Source: Oscillospiraceae bacterium
Lineage (GTDB): Bacteria > Bacillota > Clostridia > Oscillospirales > Ruminococcaceae
Length of the DNA: 64,000 nt
Direction: 5' to 3'
Assembly (NCBI GenBank): GCA_017483465.1
Contig: JAFUWN010000005.1
Location: 103,549-167,548 of the forward strand
This document shows, piece after piece, positions 3,263 to 10,581 of the stretch (position 1 is the stretch's first letter; the number at the start of each line of letters is the position of its first letter). A program made the position numbers and the translations under genes. The notes below the pieces were generated by a model. The model searched no databases. It was not told where the DNA came from and was given only the letters and a program-made list of their open reading frames with translations.

Positions 3263-3280
3263 CTTATCAGCATATTCTAT

Positions 3281-3321
3281 AAAAATCAGCATTCTGCTTT
3301 GTGCAGTCTGCTGATTTTTTT
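3281..3321 (+). terminator. Intrinsic terminator after the rlmH/radical SAM genes
   Basis: An 8-bp stem AATCAGCA/TGCTGATT (3284-3291 with 3309-3316) is followed by a run of T. It separates the upstream core genes from the phage-derived cassette, so the cassette is unlikely to be mainly read through from murA-rlmH. Confidence 0.75.
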
Positions 3322-3409
3322 GTTTTTTCATCAAAACTTTTCAAAACTTGTACTCTTCCGTACATTTTTTCCCTTTTTCACGCTGTTAGTGAAAGGAGGT
3401 CGCTCTCTT

Positions 3410-3721
3410 ATGAGTAAAAAATCAGATACGCAGCTCGTCATTGACGGCCTTAAAAAATTAGCTTTCGGAAAAGTCAATGATGCTGTTACCCTTGCATTCG
3501 CTGAAGAGATTCCGCCCCCTGAACTCCTCGCTAAAATGCGGCTGTTCAATATCTCCTCCGTCAAACGGGTCAAAGGCGGCGGCGTGGAAGTCCAGTTCTT
3601 CGACAGACAAAAGGCTCTCGAAAAACTCTACGAATATGCCCTCGCCAATCAGAACGGCAAAATTTCTGAAAGCCTTCTGAAAGCACTTTCCGATTCCGGA
3701 GCTGATGACCTTGCTGTTTGA
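3410..3721 (+). CDS. Phage terminase small subunit-like protein
   Basis: A 103-residue protein placed directly before the large terminase subunit, overlapping it by 17 bases. The segment VEVQFFDRQKALEKLYEYA resembles the C-terminal oligomerisation helix of PBSX-type small terminase subunits, which recognise DNA for packaging. The N-terminal DNA-binding helix-turn-helix seen in full-length relatives is short or missing. The start ATG has a strong Shine-Dalgarno (GAAAGGAGGT) that is partly paired in a TTTCAC/GTGAAA hairpin just upstream. The assignment rests on one motif plus position. Confidence 0.65.
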   Translation: MSKKSDTQLVIDGLKKLAFGKVNDAVTLAFAEEIPPPELLAKMRLFNISSVKRVKGGGVEVQFFDRQKALEKLYEYALANQNGKISESLLKALSDSGADDLAV

Positions 3722-4958
3722 TGCTTTCTCCCAAAAACAAAGACTCGCTCTCCAATGGTGGGCTTTGCCGGATTACTGTCATTTTGATGCCATTATCTGT
3801 GACGGGGCTGTCAGAAGCGGCAAAACATTTTCCATGTCCCTCAGTTTCGTCTGCTGGGCAATGACACATTTTCAGAACACTTCTTTTGCAATCTGCGGCA
3901 AAACTATCACATCTGCTGAACGCAACCTCATCCGTCCGCTCGTCTTTCTCCTTCAGGATGCCGGCTTTCATGTCAAAGAATCCCTCAGCAAACATTATCT
4001 TGATATTACAGCTGTCGGAATTACTAACCGCTTTTATCTCTTCGGCGGCAAAGATGAAAGCTCTGCTTCTATGATTCAGGGCATGACGCTCGGCGGTGTC
4101 CTCTTTGATGAAGTCGTTCTTATGCCCCGTTCTTTTGTGGAACAGGCTGTTGCAAGATGCTCTCTCTCCCGTGCGAAGCTCTGGTTTAACTGCAACCCCG
4201 AAAACCCTTACCATTGGTTCTATCAGGAATGGATTCTGAAAAAAGATTCCAAAAATGCTCTCTATCTCCATTTCACTATGGACGACAACCCCTCTCTTTC
4301 CCCGGAAGTCAAAGAACGCTATCAACGCATGTATGCAGGTGTATTCTATGACAGATTCGTTCTCGGAAAATGGACAGTCTCCGAAGGCGTTGTCTATCCG
4401 ATGTTTGATCAGAAACAACATGTCGTTCATGTTCTTCCCGATTCTTTTTCCCGTTATGTCCTTTCCTGTGACTACGGCACGGTTAACCCCACTTCTGTCG
4501 GACTCTGGGGCGAATCTGACGGCATCTGGTACAGAATCAAAGAATATTACTACGATTCCCGCAAAGAAGGCATTCAGAAAACCGATGAAGAACATTATAC
4601 TGCTCTCGAACTCCTGGCCGGTTCCCTCCCTGTTGAATGCATTATTGTTGACCCTTCGGCGGCCAGTTTTATCGCCTGTATCCGTTCCCATCAGAAATTC
4701 AAAGTCATCAAGGCTCAGAATGATGTGCTTTCCGGTATCCAGCATGTCAGCGATATGCTCTCCAAAAACAAACTTCTCTTTCATGACTCCTGTCATGATA
4801 TTCTCAGAGAATTTACGCAGTACTGCTGGGATTCCGGCTCGGTCAAAGATTCTCCTAAAAAAGAATCCGATCATGCAATGGATGATATGCGTTATTTTGT
4901 CAGTACTATCCTTTTCGGCAGATCAGACAGTTTCTTTGCTGTCTCTCTCAAACGCTGA
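3705..4958 (+). CDS. Phage terminase large subunit, PBSX (XtmB) type
   Basis: This is the ATPase/nuclease motor that packages DNA into phage heads. The 417 residues match the family length. Walker A is GAVRSGKT near residue 30, Walker B is GVLFDEV near 130, and the C-terminal RNase H-like nuclease part has SCDYGTVNPTSVG near 250, IIVDPSAASF near 310 and DHAMDDMRY near 390. All acidic motifs expected of the two catalytic centres appear present, so the protein may be active. Its codon use (CTC, TCT, ATT) resembles the neighbouring murA and rlmH genes rather than a recently arrived phage. Confidence 0.92.
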   Translation: MTLLFDAFSQKQRLALQWWALPDYCHFDAIICDGAVRSGKTFSMSLSFVCWAMTHFQNTSFAICGKTITSAERNLIRPLVFLLQDAGFHVKESLSKHYLDITAVGITNRFYLFGGKDESSASMIQGMTLGGVLFDEVVLMPRSFVEQAVARCSLSRAKLWFNCNPENPYHWFYQEWILKKDSKNALYLHFTMDDNPSLSPEVKERYQRMYAGVFYDRFVLGKWTVSEGVVYPMFDQKQHVVHVLPDSFSRYVLSCDYGTVNPTSVGLWGESDGIWYRIKEYYYDSRKEGIQKTDEEHYTALELLAGSLPVECIIVDPSAASFIACIRSHQKFKVIKAQNDVLSGIQHVSDMLSKNKLLFHDSCHDILREFTQYCWDSGSVKDSPKKESDHAMDDMRYFVSTILFGRSDSFFAVSLKR

Positions 4959-4987
4959 TCTTTATCAGAAAGGAGTGATTTCTCTTT

Positions 4988-6100
4988 ATGCACCCGGAAA
5001 AAAATTCCCTTCTCCCTGCTGTGCAAACCGCAGGTTCCCGTTCTGTCTATGACTTTCCTGTCTATCTCTATTCTTATGACCTGTTCGATAAAGTCCGCAG
5101 AACTGTCCCCATTATCGATGCCGCTGTCTCTAAACTCATCCGGCTGATCGGTTCTTTTCAAATCCGGTGTTCTGATCAGAAACAACAGCAGGCTCTTGAC
5201 AATTTCTTCCGCAATGTTCCGGTAGGCCTCACAGGGCAGTCTGTCTACAGCTTTCTTGATTCCTATCTTGACAGCCTGCTGATTTACGGAAACGCTGTCG
5301 GTGAAATCGTGCTCGATCAGAAAAATTCCTATATCGCCGGTCTCTGGAACGGCAATATTGCCGATATTGCTGTTGTTCCCGGTTCTTCTCCTATGGAACG
5401 CCAGTATTTCCTGCATACGCAGGACGGCGACCGGCTTCTCCCTCATCCTGACCGGATTCTCTTTTCCGCTCTCAAACCGCCAAGCGGCGGCATTTACGGC
5501 ATTTCCCTCCTCCAGGGCATTCCGGCTCTTGCCGATATTCTGCTCAGAATCTATGAATCTGTCGGCCAGAATTTCGACAGGGCAGGCAATATCCGCTATG
5601 CTGTCACGTATAAACCCTCAGATTCTTCCGATTTTGCTTATGCAAAAGAACGTGCCGAAACAATTGCTCAGGAATGGTCCGCCGGTATGCAGGCTGCTAA
5701 ATGCGGTGAAATCCGGGATTTTGTCTCTGTCGGTGATATTGATATCAAAGTCATCGGTGCAGATTCTGAAATGCCTTCTACAGAAATTCCCGTCCGGCAG
5801 CTTCTGGAACAAATCCTTTCCAAACTTTCTGTTCCGCCTTTCCTGCTCGGACTCAGCTGGTCTTCTACCGAACGCATGTCTGTGCAGCAGGCTGATATTC
5901 TCACTTCCGAACTGGAATATTACCGCCGTCTCCTTGAACCTGTTATCCGGAAAATTGCCCTTGCTTTTCTTCAGCTCAACGGTTCGTTCTCTGAAGTTTC
6001 CATTCTCTGGGATCATATCAACCTTCAGGACGAAATTGAACTTGCTCAGGCAAGACTTTATTCTGCTCAGGCTCAGGAAATCGAACAAAATCTTAATTAA
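4988..6100 (+). CDS. Phage portal protein
   Basis: Portal proteins form the ring through which DNA enters the capsid. This 370-residue protein shows an early helix with VRRTVPIIDAAVSKLIRLIG, a central LLIYGNAVGEIVL strand, the HPDRILFSALKPPSGGIYG region and a C-terminal stem/crown segment with SKLSVPPFLLGLSWSS, all typical of HK97/PBSX-like portals. It is somewhat shorter than many portals (400-500 residues). The gene sits between terminase and capsid genes, as expected for a head module, with an AGAAAGGAGTG ribosome-binding site. Confidence 0.85.
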   Translation: MHPEKNSLLPAVQTAGSRSVYDFPVYLYSYDLFDKVRRTVPIIDAAVSKLIRLIGSFQIRCSDQKQQQALDNFFRNVPVGLTGQSVYSFLDSYLDSLLIYGNAVGEIVLDQKNSYIAGLWNGNIADIAVVPGSSPMERQYFLHTQDGDRLLPHPDRILFSALKPPSGGIYGISLLQGIPALADILLRIYESVGQNFDRAGNIRYAVTYKPSDSSDFAYAKERAETIAQEWSAGMQAAKCGEIRDFVSVGDIDIKVIGADSEMPSTEIPVRQLLEQILSKLSVPPFLLGLSWSSTERMSVQQADILTSELEYYRRLLEPVIRKIALAFLQLNGSFSEVSILWDHINLQDEIELAQARLYSAQAQEIEQNLN

Positions 6101-6126
6101 TCCCTTTCACATGGAGGTATCTTTTT

Positions 6127-7104
6127 ATGTATCAGTATGAAACAATCAAACTCGAAAAAGGCATGTATCATCTCACCAACAAGAGCTTTTTGCAGGCTCT
6201 GGAAGATGCTGACCCGTCTTCTTTCTATCATAATTCTCCTCTTGCCAAACTCGATGCTTACGAACGTCAGCTCAAACGCTTTGATATTCATGTTTCCGGC
6301 GGAAACTGCGACAGAGTTGAAAAATTCTTCACTACTACCGAAAGTGCCGTATTATTCCCTGAATTTGTCCGCCGTGCCGTCATGCAGGGAATGGAAGAAT
6401 CTGTGCTTCCGCAGATTACTGCCGCTGTTTCCCGATGCGATTCCAATCGTTATCAGGGCTGTGACCTGACCGATACGGCAAGCTATACCACAACCAATGC
6501 CGGCTCTGCTCTGCCTGTTTCTTCCATTCTGGAAAGTTCTTCCGTCATTACTCTGGAAAAATACGGCAGAAATATTCGGGCTTCTTATGAAGCGATCCGT
6601 CAGCAGAGACTTGACGTATTCGCTCTCATGCTCCGCAGAATCGGCCGCCGCCTTGCCGATTCCGTTACTTCCAAGGCTGTCACTGTCCTCAAAACTTCCG
6701 CCAACAATTCTTCCAAAATTACAGTTGCTGCCAATTCTCTGGACTATTCCAATCTGGCTGCCCTGTACGGGAATTTCACTAACTTCAACATGAAAGCAAT
6801 GCTGGCTGCTCCTGCGATTATGGCTAAAATCCTCGTTATGAACCAGATGATTGAAACTTCTTCCCAGGATGTGACAGAAATCCGCCTGCCGTTCGGCACC
6901 AAACTCATCAACTGTCCTCAGCTGGATAATAACACCATCCTCGGCATTGATACGGATTTTGCTCTGGAACAGATTCAGAGCAGTGACATCATCCTGGAAA
7001 CCGACAAGCTCATTGACAATCAGCTTGATTCTATTACGGTTTCTGTCAATATCTCCTTCCGCACGCTCATGACCGATGCTGTCAAAATGATTGCTCTGAC
7101 CTGA
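6127..7104 (+). CDS. HK97-like major capsid protein
   Basis: A 325-residue protein that fits the major capsid protein by size, position and architecture. An N-terminal helical part is followed by the segment FPEFVRRAVMQGMEESVLPQ, an S/T-rich central region (TTTNAGSALPVSS) and ALMLRRIGRRLAD, then alternating strands to the end. LPFGTKLINCPQLDNNTILG resembles the P-domain strand near the end of HK97-type capsids. The normal phage order is portal, protease, capsid, but here the capsid gene precedes the protease-like gene. No separate scaffold gene is seen. The function is inferred from context plus fold-like features. Confidence 0.75.
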   Translation: MYQYETIKLEKGMYHLTNKSFLQALEDADPSSFYHNSPLAKLDAYERQLKRFDIHVSGGNCDRVEKFFTTTESAVLFPEFVRRAVMQGMEESVLPQITAAVSRCDSNRYQGCDLTDTASYTTTNAGSALPVSSILESSSVITLEKYGRNIRASYEAIRQQRLDVFALMLRRIGRRLADSVTSKAVTVLKTSANNSSKITVAANSLDYSNLAALYGNFTNFNMKAMLAAPAIMAKILVMNQMIETSSQDVTEIRLPFGTKLINCPQLDNNTILGIDTDFALEQIQSSDIILETDKLIDNQLDSITVSVNISFRTLMTDAVKMIALT

Positions 7105-7175
7105 TTTTTGCAGAGAGATTCTTTCTCTCTGCTCTCCTGATTTATTTTATCTTACTATGAAAGGACTGTCAGCTT

Positions 7176-7982
7176 ATGACACCTATTGAAAAAATCAATC
7201 AATTTACACGCCGGGAACTTTCCGAAGAGGAAGTCTATCTTTTTGATATTATCCTCTGTGACAATGATATTGACAGAGATCTGGAGTGTTTCTCTGAAAA
7301 TGCCCTTGCTCAGATGCAGAAACTCTTTATCGGCAAAACCGGTATTTTTGATCATAATCTCCAGTCTGCCGGACAAACTGCAAGAATCTATGATACCGAA
7401 CTTGTCAGATCTCCGGATCAGAAAACCAAAGACGGCAGAACTCTGCTTTCTCTCAAAGCACATGCCTATATGATCCGCACAGATTCCAATCTTGATTTTA
7501 TCAAAGAAATCGATGCCGGTATCAAAAAAGAAGTCAGTGTTTCCTGCTCTGCCGGAAAACGGCTTTGTTCTGTCTGCGGTACTGATAAAGCTCAGTCCTG
7601 CTGCAATCATATCGCCGGTAAAAAATACGGTCAGAAATCCTGCTATACAATCCTGGAAGATATTCAGGATGCCTATGAATGGAGCTTTGTTGCCGTTCCT
7701 GCTCAGCCTGCTGCCGGAGTTACCAAATATTTCAAAAACGCTTCTTCTTCCGCTCCTGATACGGAACTCTCCGAACTCCTCAGCGATCTCGAACAGCAGA
7801 CACGCTCCGAAGTGCTTGCTCTGTGCAGAAATCAGTCTCAGGAACCTGTTTCCAAAGCTCTCTGTATCGCTGCCGAAAAAATGGACCTCCGTGAACTCGT
7901 TCAGTTTAAAAAATCCCTGATCGAACAGGAACACTCTCTCAGTCAGGCCGCTGTACAGCTTGCCGATTTCCGTCAGAAATAA
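7176..7982 (+). CDS. Phage prohead protease/capsid maturation-like protein
   Basis: A 268-residue protein that resembles U35/XkdF-type prohead proteases fused to a scaffold-like tail. The candidate catalytic His is in GIFDHNLQS (near residue 55) and the candidate Ser in KKEVSVSCSAG (near 120). The following EWSFVAVPAQPAAGV matches the conserved C-terminal strand of these proteases. Residues 185-268 are helical and charged, as in scaffolding domains. A Cys-rich insert (CSVCGTDKAQSCCNH) lies between the Ser and the last strand and could bind metal; similar inserts occur in Firmicute phage homologues. The gene lies after the capsid gene, the reverse of the usual order. Confidence 0.7.
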   Translation: MTPIEKINQFTRRELSEEEVYLFDIILCDNDIDRDLECFSENALAQMQKLFIGKTGIFDHNLQSAGQTARIYDTELVRSPDQKTKDGRTLLSLKAHAYMIRTDSNLDFIKEIDAGIKKEVSVSCSAGKRLCSVCGTDKAQSCCNHIAGKKYGQKSCYTILEDIQDAYEWSFVAVPAQPAAGVTKYFKNASSSAPDTELSELLSDLEQQTRSEVLALCRNQSQEPVSKALCIAAEKMDLRELVQFKKSLIEQEHSLSQAAVQLADFRQK

Positions 7983-8021
7983 TCTTTTCTTCCCTATTCC
8001 CTGTAAAGGAGGTTCTGCTTT

Positions 8022-8378
8022 ATGGATATGCAGATGATCTATTCTCTTTTCCGGCTCTTCTCCGGTGAACAGGATGCCGAAACGTATATGCCCCTTCTGC
8101 TTACTTCTGTCGAAGAAGTGAAAACCTGCCTGAAAAATTCCGAAGATATTCAGGAAATCCGGCTTTGCTATCTCGCTGCCGCTGTTGCCAATCTCCGTTA
8201 TACACAGCTGTACGGAGCCAGAGAAAAAGCTCTTGCCACGTATGCCGGCAATCTTTCAAGCGAATCTGACCTCTCCCATCAGATTCGCTTTGCCGAACAG
8301 CTTGTCAATTCTTATAAAGCTCTCTGTTCTGACCTGCTCAAAGAACAGAATTTCTTCTTCTTCGGTGTCAGGGGGTGA
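8022..8378 (+). CDS. Small helical protein, head-tail connector-like
   Basis: This 118-residue, mostly helical protein (IRLCYLAAAVANLRYTQLYG, then HQIRFAEQLVNSYKALCSD) follows the capsid and protease genes where phages encode the head-tail connector or adaptor. No diagnostic motif was recognised, and the role is inferred from position and helical character. It has a strong ribosome-binding site (AAAGGAGG). Its stop lies six bases before the next start, within the next gene's Shine-Dalgarno region, which suggests coupling. Confidence 0.5.
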   Translation: MDMQMIYSLFRLFSGEQDAETYMPLLLTSVEEVKTCLKNSEDIQEIRLCYLAAAVANLRYTQLYGAREKALATYAGNLSSESDLSHQIRFAEQLVNSYKALCSDLLKEQNFFFFGVRG

Positions 8379-8383
8379 AGCTC

Positions 8384-8809
8384 ATGAACGAATTACTCAC
8401 CCTCTTTCTTGCTCTTCTCAAAAATCAGCAGAATTCTTCCCGTTTTGAAGTCTGTTCCTCGTTTGATGCTGTTCCGGTCTCTTCCAAATCCCGGAAATTA
8501 TTTGTTGTCGTTTCTCCCGAATCTATGAAACTCAGTCAGCCGTTTTCCGGTTCTTCCGGGCAGATCGCCCCGTTTACGGCTGATTTCCGCTTCTATGTCC
8601 TCGCCCCGATGACAACGCCTTCTGAACAGCTTCTGCAATTTTTCTATTCTGTTCTTGTGCCTGCTCTGCATGACGAAAACTGTTTCCTCTATGAGATGCA
8701 GGCCGATGCCCCCAAAGCAGATTATAAACTTCAGAAACTTGTTTATTCTGCTGTATTCCGTATCAAAGGCCTTTGGATGCCGGACAGTCAGGAGGCTGAA
8801 ACTCTATGA
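8384..8809 (+). CDS. Small phage neck/tail-completion-like protein
   Basis: A 141-residue protein with an alternating alpha/beta pattern. The segments ADFRFYVLAPMTTPSEQLLQ and QKLVYSAVFRIKGLW recall tail-terminator or minor neck proteins, but this is only a resemblance and the gene is not firmly recognised. ATG 8384 was chosen because the GGGGGTG Shine-Dalgarno sits 8 bases upstream; a GTG at 8375 is also in frame. It overlaps the following gene by 4 bases (ATGA), so the two are probably translated together. Confidence 0.45.
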   Translation: MNELLTLFLALLKNQQNSSRFEVCSSFDAVPVSSKSRKLFVVVSPESMKLSQPFSGSSGQIAPFTADFRFYVLAPMTTPSEQLLQFFYSVLVPALHDENCFLYEMQADAPKADYKLQKLVYSAVFRIKGLWMPDSQEAETL

Positions 8810-9195
8810 GCTATCTGATTCAGAAACGCAAGTATTTCCCTGTTACTTTTGATACTCTGACAATCTTTCTTTCCGATTATCAGATTTCCGGAAGCAGTAC
8901 CCTCAAAGAATCCTGTACAGCAGACGGTTCTGCTGTACTGACTGCATACTGGAAACAGGGCAGCCGCCTTAAATTAAAAGGCAAACTCTCTCCCGATCTT
9001 TCTCCTGAACAGGTGCTCCTGCATCTGCTGCAAAATATGCTGACTCCCCAGACTTTTACTCTCGGCAGTCTCTCGTTTTCCAATGCCAGACTCTGCGGCT
9101 ATACACTCGCTGAACAGCAGGACACACCCGAATTATCTTTATTATTCTACTGTCCTGAAGCTCCCTCTCTGATACAGGAGGAACCTTCCGCATGA
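8806..9195 (+). CDS. Beta-rich small protein of the phage-derived cassette
   Basis: This 129-residue protein overlaps both neighbours by 4 bases (ATGA at each end). It is rich in beta-strand-forming segments (TLTIFLSDYQISGSSTL, SRLKLKGKLS, FTLGSLSFSNARLCGYTL), a pattern found in tail-tube, tube-initiator or baseplate proteins. I do not recognise the family. It is the only candidate here for a tube-like component, since no normal tube or sheath gene is present. Confidence 0.4.
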   Translation: MSYLIQKRKYFPVTFDTLTIFLSDYQISGSSTLKESCTADGSAVLTAYWKQGSRLKLKGKLSPDLSPEQVLLHLLQNMLTPQTFTLGSLSFSNARLCGYTLAEQQDTPELSLLFYCPEAPSLIQEEPSA

Positions 9196-10115
9196 ATCAG
9201 AATCTAACTCTTTATCTGTTCGGCAATCAGGCCGCTGTCAGAATTGTTCCCTGTCTTTCGTTTTCTCTGGAACGGGAGGCCTATACGCCTTTTGAATCCG
9301 TAACGGCTGAGTTCCTTTCTGACCGGTCTGATTATTCCAATATAGAACGGCTTGCAATTTACCGTGACCAGGAACAAATCTTTTTTGGTCTTGCCGATTC
9401 TGTTCAGCAATATCATAAAAATCATCTTTCTTTTGTCAGAATTACTTCCCGGAGTTTTCCCTCCCTTCTTACTCAGAACGAACTGGAACCCGGTCTGCAC
9501 AGTAACCTGACAATTGCTTCCCTGATGACAGACTTCTATCAGTTCCCGCAGATCACGTATGAAAATTTTTCCGGAACAGGTTATATTTTCGTCAAATCCG
9601 GCAATACTATGTGGGACGGTGTTGTCAGCTTCGGCTATAAACTCACAGGACATTACCCTTATATCCAGCATAATCATATCTGCCTTTCTGCTCCGCAGGA
9701 CAGTACACCCCTGCAATTTTCAGAATCTCAGGTTCTGGAATACGGCTCCTGTCTGGATACTACCAAACTGATCAGCCATTATCATATGGAAGACATCAAC
9801 GGCACTCCTGACAGCTACAGTCAGGCAAATCCGGCAGCAGCAGCTTTTTCTATTGTCCGCCATAAACAAATCCCTTTTGACCGCTCTTTTCTTCACGACC
9901 CTGATGATGCTCTCACGTTCCGGAACCTCTATTCCCGAAGAGGCAGTCAGGCAGATTATCTTGTCTACTCTGGATTTCAGAACGAACTGATCGGCCAGAA
10001 ATTCTCTTTCGGCAATCTATTCCAGAATCAGACAATCTGCCGTGTCAGAACCACATTCGGACAAAACGGATTCCGTACCAAACTCTGGAGCTATCATGAC
10101 GGATTTTATCCTTAA
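9192..10115 (+). CDS. Baseplate hub-like protein (XkdQ/late control D type)
   Basis: A 307-residue protein that resembles phage hub proteins, which form the ring at the tail tip. The opening strands FSLEREAYTPFESVTAEFL and IERLAIYRDQEQIFFGLADS are typical of the first beta-barrel. The segment FVRITSRSFPSLLTQNE matches the usual hub feature of a ligand-type barrel followed by a helix. The second half has SGNTMWDGVVSFGYK, the short helical insert common to XkdQ-like hubs. Tail tube, tape-measure and spike genes that usually accompany a hub are absent. It is the last intact gene of the cassette and is followed by a strong terminator. Confidence 0.6.
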   Translation: MNQNLTLYLFGNQAAVRIVPCLSFSLEREAYTPFESVTAEFLSDRSDYSNIERLAIYRDQEQIFFGLADSVQQYHKNHLSFVRITSRSFPSLLTQNELEPGLHSNLTIASLMTDFYQFPQITYENFSGTGYIFVKSGNTMWDGVVSFGYKLTGHYPYIQHNHICLSAPQDSTPLQFSESQVLEYGSCLDTTKLISHYHMEDINGTPDSYSQANPAAAAFSIVRHKQIPFDRSFLHDPDDALTFRNLYSRRGSQADYLVYSGFQNELIGQKFSFGNLFQNQTICRVRTTFGQNGFRTKLWSYHDGFYP

Positions 10116-10179
10116 CAATTCCAGCCGCTGCACGGCTGTTTCTATACAGCATATCCATCCAGCCGCAGCTTCCGGATGA
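10096..10179 (+). pseudogene. Truncated start of a further cassette gene (27 codons)
   Basis: An ATG at 10096, preceded by GGAG at a good distance, opens a 27-codon frame that overlaps the stop of the hub-like gene, as phage genes commonly do. It stops at 10177-10179. A second frame past this point (LPDEVQKIPELPAGYAKC) also looks coding-like, so this may be the frameshifted remnant of the next tail gene. It is too short to name. Confidence 0.3.
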
Positions 10180-10216
10180 GGTGCAGAAGATTCCCGAACT
10201 TCCGGCCGGATATGCC

Positions 10217-10259
10217 AAATGTCTCTTTACTGTCAGATACAGTAAAGAGACATTTTTTT
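10217..10259 (+). terminator. Strong terminator ending the phage-derived cassette
   Basis: A perfect 17-bp inverted repeat (10217-10233 with 10239-10255) with a five-base loop is followed by T residues. The perfect stem also forms in the opposite direction, so it may block convergent transcription between the cassette and spoVS. Confidence 0.9.
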
Positions 10260-10263
10260 ATCT

Positions 10264-10303
10264 CAATAAAAAGCAGCCGCTTCTGCAAACAGAATCAGCT
10301 GCT
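10264..10303 (-). terminator. Terminator downstream of spoVS
   Basis: On the minus strand AGCAGC...GCTGCT (10298-10303 with 10272-10277) encloses an inner TTCTG/CAGAA stem and is followed by TTTTTATTG. It lies 17 bases beyond the spoVS stop and ends the leftward spoVS transcript. Confidence 0.75.
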
Positions 10304-10320
10304 GTCATTTTTTACTTTTC

Positions 10321-10581
10321 TTATCTGGGCTCGCAGATCAGCTTAATTGCTGTACGGTCTTCACCATCAATCTGAATGCTGGTAAATGCCGGAATGCAAA
10401 TCAGGTCAATGCCGATGGGAGCAAGATATCCTCTTGCTACTGCAATGGACTTGATTGCCTGATTGGCAGCACCTGCCCCGACTGCCTGAATTTCTACATT
10501 CTTGTTTTCACGGATGACACCTGCAATAGCACCTGCTACAGAATTAGGAACAGAACGGGAAGATACTTTTAAGACTTCCAT
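10321..10581 (-). CDS. spoVS: Stage V sporulation protein S
   Basis: SpoVS is a small nucleic-acid-binding protein of the Alba-like fold needed for correct completion of sporulation in Bacillus; it also affects septation. The 86-residue length and sequence (MEVLKVSSRSVPNSVAGAI, then VEIQAVGAGAANQAIKSIA) match the family along its whole length, so identification is secure. The start at 10581 is fixed by the Shine-Dalgarno AGGAGG just upstream and the conserved N-terminus; a longer in-frame extension upstream is not used. It lies downstream of ymdB, the same pairing as in Bacillus, but has its own SigA-type promoter. Confidence 0.97.
   Translation of the reverse strand: MEVLKVSSRSVPNSVAGAIAGVIRENKNVEIQAVGAGAANQAIKSIAVARGYLAPIGIDLICIPAFTSIQIDGEDRTAIKLICEPR

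Follow-up and report, generated by a model that had tools for sequence, protein, structure and literature searches.

Genomic Organization of the Packaging Cassette

The 64,000-nucleotide stretch of the Oscillospiraceae bacterium contig JAFUWN010000005.1 analysed here (the window) carries a cassette of nine phage-derived genes, spanning 6.7 kb between a radical-SAM (rSAM) gene and the convergently oriented genes spoVS-ymdB, that probably represents the packaging half of a domesticated, vertically inherited and multi-locus gene transfer agent (GTA)-like system of Ruminococcaceae. The names spoVS and ymdB were taken from an earlier note on this DNA and from reading by eye. The genes and border features are the following (E, expectation value):

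3281-3319, plus strand: left-border hairpin after the rSAM gene, similar to a rho-independent terminator; a 17-nt inverted repeat, 88% complementary, followed by a T run
3410-3721, plus strand: terS, small terminase TerS with its N-terminal helix-turn-helix (HTH) domain missing; Pfam Terminase_2 at positions 62-130 of 141, below cut-off
3705-4958, plus strand: terL, packaging ATPase/nuclease TerL; Terminase_6N; TIGR01547, E 1.5e-58 (above cut-off); phrog_2; PDB 5oe8, E 2.4e-149
4988-6100, plus strand: portal; Phage_portal, E 5.8e-14 (above cut-off); phrog_30703, E 3e-132
6127-7104, plus strand: major capsid protein (MCP); Phage_capsid_4, E 1.2e-16 (above cut-off); phrog_3922, E 3e-64
7176-7982, plus strand: g5, probable head maturation protease or scaffold; phrog_16951 (function unknown), E 7e-87
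8022-8378, plus strand: g6, probable head-tail adaptor, judged from its position and one relative's weak match to phrog_541, E 0.042
8384-8809, plus strand: g7, equivalent of the gene two places after g6 in the operon's long form, a putative tail-completion gene by order; profile probability 94.3, E 1e-7
8806-9195, plus strand: g8, small protein, tube- or pre-hub-like; weak profile matches to pre-hub (28.2%, E 6e-4) and tube (8.6%, E 4e-3)
9192-10115, plus strand: g9, baseplate-hub-like protein, whose profile retrieves the hub gene of the long form
10217-10255, plus strand: right-border terminator hairpin, a perfect 17-bp stem followed by T's

The coordinates of all nine frames agree with the earlier description of consecutive plus-strand genes with zero in-frame stops and 4-bp overlaps; such overlaps join g7 to g8 and g8 to g9, and terS and terL overlap by 17 bp. 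The identities previously given to TerL, portal and capsid also held, all three exceeding the curated cut-offs of their hidden Markov models (HMMs), and on this basis the particle proteins are of caudoviricete origin, a feature by which GTAs are recognized. The PDB entry matched by TerL is entitled 'Large subunit terminase', and the PDB sequence search returned no match for MCP or for g9. Counterparts of g5 lie between portal and MCP in many relatives of the family and show weak matches to head-protease families (best E 0.0057). For g6-g8 no family match at E <= 0.1 was found in the libraries searched and for g9 only a meaningless Pfam hit below cut-off, while three of the 63 short-form members of g9 themselves match phrog_177 (baseplate hub). 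Alignments A2 and A3 comprised 63 and 62 sequences, respectively, picked from 74 and 70 named-locus matches plus the window.

Both borders were recovered as described before: the left hairpin follows the rSAM gene and is retained across an alignment of 10 genus loci, and the right one is perfect, with spoVS convergent beyond it. In agreement with the earlier note, the interval between the two borders showed no gene for an integrase, a repressor, lysis or replication. Its picture of a unit without tape-measure or fibre genes needs correcting in one respect, since a phage-tail gene on another contig apparently belongs with the cassette. The longest exact direct repeat between the flanks 3263-3409 and 10116-10340 measures 9 nt, and hence no attachment-site (att)-like pair was recognized. 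The argument drawn from a codon style matching that of the host had to be abandoned as uninformative, because the correlation of relative synonymous codon usage was nearly equal for cassette and host (r 0.879), cassette and prophage (0.871), and host and prophage (0.879).

Distribution and Genomic Context

The samples comprised 38 genomes of the genus and 396 of the family, the window's own genome being designated G000. A single-copy portal was present in 35 of the 38 genus genomes and had no match in G018 and G031 (77-79% complete) or in G037 (91% complete), where the next gene after rSAM reads by eye as polyphosphate-kinase-like and the cassette is missing. Across the family, 170 of the 396 genomes, representing 60 of 126 genera, gave a portal match at E <= 1e-40, in single copy except in G044 and G332. 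An order-wide draw at E <= 1e-30 yielded 57 positives among 345 genomes, with one copy each, in families f1, f2, f7, f14, f15, and f24, and a search with a family profile of the portal was positive in 24 of 41 relatives versus 0 of 14 control genomes. The best 80 of at least 557 named relatives consist largely of Ruminococcus records, often of rumen or gut origin, and include the cultured R. flavefaciens Y1, YAD2003, ATCC 19208, and FD-1. Among these 80 loci, many of them cut by contig ends, terS was found in 75, terL in 78, portal in 80, MCP in 77, g5 in 78, g6 in 76, g7 in 65, g8 in 70, and g9 in 74.

All nine genes are present in 29 of the 35 genus loci, and the six incomplete ones (L046, L060, L061, L064, L065, and L068) all stop at contig ends. 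In the 29 full loci, 257 of the 261 gene frames match at least 80% of their model in a single block; the four others are terS of L038, partly lost at a contig end, and L039 g9, L050 g5, and L067 g8, which have normal full scores in split blocks. The earlier note had suggested looking for the same gene order at the same locus in related genomes, and it recurs: counting the window, rlmH-rSAM lies upstream of the cassette in 14 of the 35 genus loci (in L039 these two genes are about 5 kb apart) and spoVS-ymdB downstream in nine, the remaining loci having different neighbours or a contig end. An association between spoVS and the cassette recurs, since spoVS lies near the cassette in 10 of the 80 named loci. 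A different arrangement, with spoVS upstream of terS and codirectional instead of convergent downstream, was observed in L055 (G030), L133, L147, L161, L162, and L172.

TerS and TerL are retained in five genomes of only 0.7-0.9 Mb. The gene order is dissolved in some reduced genomes, with terS-terL and portal on different contigs in G195 (L080, G195:C7; L332, G195:C1) and terS-terL placed 2 kb from portal on the opposite strand in G313 (L330, G313:C2). These two and L333 (G104:C4), all highly reduced genomes of 0.7-0.8 Mb, keep both terS-terL and portal.

Vertical Inheritance and Purifying Selection

A concatenated tree of the cassette was compared with that of rpoB for 39 genomes (20 of the genus and 19 of the family) having terL, portal, MCP, g5, and rpoB, out of 55 considered. 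The two trees share 25 of 36 splits, compared with a mean of 0.2 and a maximum of 2 under label permutation. Among the 19 cassette splits with support of at least 95, 17 recur in the rpoB tree and none of the 19 conflicts with its strong splits; reciprocally, 15 of the 17 strong rpoB splits were found in the cassette tree and all are compatible with it. The Mantel correlation between the two sets of distances was 0.92 (permutation maximum 0.45). The cassette is thus inherited vertically with its hosts across the family, showing the co-diversification expected of GTAs.

The ratio of nonsynonymous to synonymous substitution rates (dN/dS) was calculated by NG86 as the median over pairs with dS of 0.1-1.5, larger distances being rough owing to saturation, and the input to both dN/dS and trees was the first aligned block of each gene, so that L039 g9, L050 g5, and L067 g8 entered as small pieces only. 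Medians far below 1, as sought by the earlier note, were obtained for the packaging genes terS (0.15, n = 95), terL (0.15, n = 93), and portal (0.15, n = 168), followed by MCP (0.17, n = 194), g5 (0.17, n = 105), and g6 (0.27, n = 105). Neighbouring genes gave 0.08 for ymdB (n = 29), 0.09 for rlmH (n = 24), 0.12 for rSAM (n = 22), and 0.13 for mbl (n = 15). In the 12 closest pairs, the values ranged from 0.03 to 0.24 for terL and portal and from 0.04 to 0.68 for g8. As terS, terL, and portal are among the most constrained genes, and as TerS and TerL survive in the five genomes of 0.7-0.9 Mb, it is DNA packaging that selection maintains.

The compact packaging module and the different neighbours in several genus members could also suggest a capsid-forming phage satellite or a still-mobile element, and recombinase-like frames were seen by eye near the cassette in G123 (L334, about 1.7 kb upstream of terS), G041 (L079), and the IMG/VR contig L234. 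However, the cassette contains no integrase or replication gene and its trees follow the host, and in G209, which has the same genus code as G123, the neighbour genes shared with G123 are present with no recombinase-like frame seen, the neighbourhoods having been read without a systematic recombinase screen. We therefore consider a mobile element very unlikely.

Relationship to Phages and Prophages

When 50,697 phage records (INPHARED) were searched, MCP matched only five unannotated human-faecal scaffolds, and portal matched the same five plus a Microcystis phage at 28%. Cassette-bearing records entitled 'Bacteriophage sp.' include L175 (MT835508) and L176-L178. MT835508, the largest scaffold, was considered as a phage and rejected, because its flanks, read by eye as rnf and ribosomal-protein operons, indicate a bacterial chromosome; the other four INPHARED scaffolds were annotated in part. 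In IMG/VR, the best 80 of 362 matches are mostly fragments shorter than 10 kb, and the 23 contigs of at least 8 kb that were annotated carry cassette genes in order.

These data bear on the explanation that the locus is a recently truncated or defective prophage. The phage-derived genes, the small size of the unit and the ordinary prophages in the same genome would agree with it. Nevertheless, it is already contradicted by the presence of the cassette throughout the genus and family, the congruence of the trees, purifying selection, and the finding of the portal/MCP pair in phage records only in the five unannotated scaffolds, the largest of which is bacterial. The earlier note had named attachment sites among the marks of a recent defective prophage, and no flank repeat exceeds 9 nt; this explanation is accordingly regarded as barely tenable.

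Ordinary prophages of G000 were encountered in the course of the searches. One prophage-like region (L069, G000:C76) encodes a TerL about 58% identical to that of the cassette, the other cassette genes not being detected there; two contigs (L071, G000:C23; L072, G000:C100) gave the same TerL score and carry the same late-regulator homologue, and are perhaps one prophage present twice.

The Small Terminase Lacks Its DNA-Binding Domain

An HMM of the N-terminal HTH region, built from six TerS of the family, detected this domain in none of 29 genus loci and none of five reduced-genome loci, compared with 16 of 19 family loci (six of the 16 being seeds), 54 of 75 named loci, and three of four faecal scaffolds. 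All 13 members of the window's genus among the named loci have a TerS without HTH, and inspection of the frames of at least 60 amino acids in the genus loci revealed no detached HTH piece. The lack of a detectable N-terminal DNA-binding domain, described as typical of GTA small terminases (PMC11841831), thus extends throughout the genus. All known GTAs are said to have a TerS without this domain, an absence believed to allow DNA to be packaged without selection (PMC11841831).

Longer and Shorter Forms of the Operon

In G196 (L082), the shared head genes are followed by a sheath (phrog_279, E 2e-13), tube, chaperone, and hub, the last being a homologue of g9 (phrog_177 baseplate hub, E 2.8e-8), and then by a gp25-like wedge (phrog_120, E 9e-9), a J-like gene (phrog_6, E 5e-58), and a gpI-like gene before host genes resume. 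This long form was tested with HMMs in L082 only, the sheath of L079, L091, L093, and others having been read by eye, and the labels tube, chaperone, and completion are presumptive, following gene order, unless a match is stated. A second form, in L177, L178, L241, and L252, has a tube-like gene between g6 and g9 and no sheath there, with a tube-to-tube profile match of 97.4% (E 9e-12). The window represents a minimal form, with g6-g9 only between the head genes and the right border. In L077 (G370:C1:712500-732400), head genes only were observed, namely terS, terL, portal, g5, a 111-amino-acid decoration-like gene, and MCP, and g6-g9 were not detected in this locus.

These loci show that one homologous family spans forms with a full contractile tail, sheath-less forms and nearly tail-less forms. 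G040, G050, and G370, in which no sheath was seen, nest among long-form genomes in the trees, which favours tail loss, and the long form would be the older one. The window TerL falls in the NCBI 'PBSX family' model; PBSX of Bacillus subtilis is a prophage-like block that unites a contractile tail and lysis genes. The gene order of the long form (sheath, tube, hub, gp25, J, I) presumably resembles that of PBSX/Xkd. Unlike PBSX, the window form has no contractile tail.

A Putative Shared Promoter Links the Cassette to a Tail Gene and a DUF6291 Gene

A composite motif precedes terS and consists of two parts:

3349-3364, no strand assigned: dyad TGTAC-N6-GTACA, 16 nt, first half of a putative composite promoter/operator
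3381-3398, plus strand: downstream element CGCTNTTWRTGAAAGGAG, which includes the probable ribosome-binding site, separated from the dyad by 16 nt, 0 mismatches

The dyad is the sole exact match within the window, a result reached in 0 of 100 shuffles, and the composite is found upstream of terS in all five genomes searched, G000 included. Among relatives, the dyad is changed on both arms together in L043, L044, and L035 and on one arm in L040. The five genomes contain 6, 7, 4, 3, and 5 exact dyads, versus 3, 1, 0, 1, and 3 matches to the reversed pattern. Of these 25 exact-dyad sites, 24 were examined (G010:C161:147242 was left out), and the downstream element follows within three mismatches, 16-17 nt after the dyad, at 14. 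The other ten, with 6-9 mismatches to the element, were put down to chance, even though one occurs in two genomes. L360 (G000:C105) and L339 (G003:C15) share an exact dyad that lacks the downstream element and stands in the same place beside an HTH gene.

The 14 composites precede five cassettes, five copies of a stand-alone phage-tail gene, three DUF6291 genes (one in G000 and two in G010), and, again in G010, a single sigma-region-4 gene; the analysis of tail-gene and DUF6291 promoters covered these five genomes. Within 1.09 Mb of the own genome, no more than three composites with 0-2 mismatches were found, two of them in stretches selected through the dyad search, with none at 3-5 mismatches and noise at 6 as in the control. 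No holin or endolysin was seen behind an exact-dyad composite in the five genomes, and a relaxed motif was applied to 37% of the own genome. Units with one promoter type thus lie on three contigs of G000, namely the cassette, the tail gene (G000:C59), and the DUF6291 gene (G000:C50), and the system is fully endogenized and split over several loci, as GTAs often are (PMC9662315). The composite of dyad and downstream element presumably acts as a promoter.

The stand-alone tail gene encodes 183-194 amino acids in four genomes and ends in Pfam Phage_tail_C (PF24243), with both tested copies passing the cut-off (E 4e-11 and 8e-6); its neighbours were read by eye as purA, a HAD hydrolase, and ackA. 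The two DUF6291 proteins tested both match PF19808 above cut-off, together with phage replication families (1.7e-11 and 0.0012). The sigma-region-4 gene of G010 matches phage transcriptional regulators (phrog_36, 1.9e-13), and a 33% homologue of this candidate activator lies upstream of terL in own-genome prophages.

Comparison with Known Gene Transfer Agents

In 2026, human-gut Ruminococcaceae were reported to package short pieces of host DNA in the manner of GTAs, with genes assigned only for Faecalibacterium (PMC12946183). The capsid-protected host DNA measured 4.6 kb in R. callidus and 8.4-8.9 kb in Faecalibacterium, these being two of several packaging members (PMC12946183). The closest published system found is that of the Faecalibacterium agents; these, FpGTA I/II (Borodovich et al. 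2026, PMC12946183), likewise belong to the family Ruminococcaceae. FpGTA resembles the cassette in being a single operon with a TerS said to be without a DNA-binding domain, TerL, portal, a scaffolding protein, and MCP, and resembles the window's system in having a separate second locus with tail/receptor genes and operons without replication genes (PMC12946183). FpGTA I is larger, with 10.5 kb and ten open reading frames versus 6.7 kb and nine genes, and FpGTA II includes baseplate, fibre, receptor-binding, holin, and endolysin genes, whereas one tail gene (plus DUF6291) was found here (PMC12946183). Set beside FpGTA by description, the cassette is, we think, its Ruminococcus counterpart; the whole system is probably allied to FpGTA, and homology of the cassette to FpGTA I, compared by description only, is plausible.

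RcGTA and the Rhodogtaviriformidae share with the cassette vertical inheritance, a multi-locus organization, a TerS without a detectable DNA-binding domain, and an HK97-like head (PMC9662315, PMC11841831). RcGTA differs in its particles, which bear a 49-nm tail. In BaGTA of Bartonella, the genes lie near an active virus-derived replication origin (PMC9662315). BaGTA is an earlier example of a GTA associated with replication functions, the link between DUF6291 and packaging here being a shared promoter only. Taken by genes and sequences, the cassette displays three of the six features listed for GTAs (PMC9662315). The remaining three are the packaging of mainly random host DNA, incomplete packaging of the agent's own genome, whose loci are here spread over contigs, and delivery of DNA to other cells. 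No other paper on the cassette was found in the open-access literature, preprints being outside the scope of this search.

Proposed Function and Alternative Explanations

The domesticated, GTA-like character suggested by the earlier note is supported by gene order in relatives, low dN/dS, a host-congruent tree and the HTH-less TerS. Each part of the proposal that follows, from particle formation through host-DNA packaging and delivery to the regulator, is an inferred step. A dedicated promoter, formed by the 16-bp dyad and the fixed downstream element, would switch on three dispersed units together, namely the head cassette, the stand-alone tail-tip/fibre-like gene, and the DUF6291 phage replication-type gene. 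TerS without a DNA-recognition domain would let TerL load host DNA through the portal into the capsid with no pac/cos preference. The hub g9, together with g6-g8 and the separately encoded tail protein, could close the head and form a minimal tail-like end. Release would require a lysis function, none of which was found in the regions searched.

Several observations weigh against this interpretation. No particle, packaged DNA or transfer has been observed. Genes for a sheath, a tape measure, a baseplate or lysis were not found alongside the cassette, and baseplate protein J matched none of the 38 genus genomes in a search run without a positive control. The distal genes evolve faster, with median dN/dS of 0.35 for g9 (n = 82), 0.47 for g7 (n = 102), and 0.52 for g8 (n = 128). 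Most relatives outside the genus retain the HTH in TerS, so the support for unselective packaging is confined to the window's genus and the reduced genomes. G037 has no portal although it is 91% complete, so that a genome can do without the system; two of eight portal-bearing small genomes searched (G138 and G375) yielded no TerL, and L152 yielded no MCP. The tail gene of G012 (L342, G012:C78, near 1054-1455) encodes only 133 amino acids, its C-terminal tail-tip end missing, so this part is not equally constrained. DUF6291 stands behind an exact-dyad composite in only two of the five genomes and the activator in one. Finally, TerL, unlike portal and MCP, has close phage relatives (PDB 5oe8 and an own-genome prophage).

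Tail loss, the faster g7-g9, the shortened G012 tail gene, and the lysis genes not found could alternatively reflect an ancestral GTA that has since fallen inactive in the window's genus, its packaging genes being under residual selection. However, the near-complete set of frames in the 29 full loci (257 of 261), the low dN/dS between species, and the promoter dyad, kept and in some relatives changed on both arms, make such decay highly improbable, slightly more so than a mobile element.

Another alternative is a domesticated capsid or tailocin-like particle without gene transfer, whose DNA-filled heads would serve for killing, as decoy, as nutrient or in another use, as discussed for PBSX. 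Searches in the window's genus found neither a contractile tail nor a baseplate, so that an injection device is not evident. In tailocins, the tail is retained and the head lost. The cassette is the reverse, with a conserved head and a lost tail; terS, terL, and portal are among its most constrained genes, TerS and TerL survive in the five genomes of 0.7-0.9 Mb, and the tail-tip gene has the same promoter as the cassette. A non-transfer use is also left open for FpGTA by its own authors (PMC12946183). On balance, a particle without transfer is considered unlikely, though it deserves real weight.

Returning to the GTA-like reading, the cassette is a candidate packaging locus for much of the family, including cultured R. 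flavefaciens, and the promoter signature points to the other parts of the system. As one homologous family offers a range of tail forms and TerS both with and without HTH, loss of DNA recognition as the step that makes a GTA becomes directly testable. A broader scenario, tentative and rather doubtful at present, is an Oscillospirales order-wide GTA lineage that arose from a contractile-tail element by loss of the sheath and, later, of the baseplate to give a head-plus-hub particle, served by a dispersed one-promoter regulon, a domesticated phage sigma-like activator, and DUF6291 feeding DNA to packaging.

Additional Observations

Two cassette-bearing records of metagenome-assembled genomes (L136 and L157) are titled Alistipes and are probably misnamed or misbinned. 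A 434-amino-acid antisense open frame lies opposite terL (window 3570-4874, minus strand), and long antisense frames of this kind across the cassettes mislead simple picking of open reading frames.

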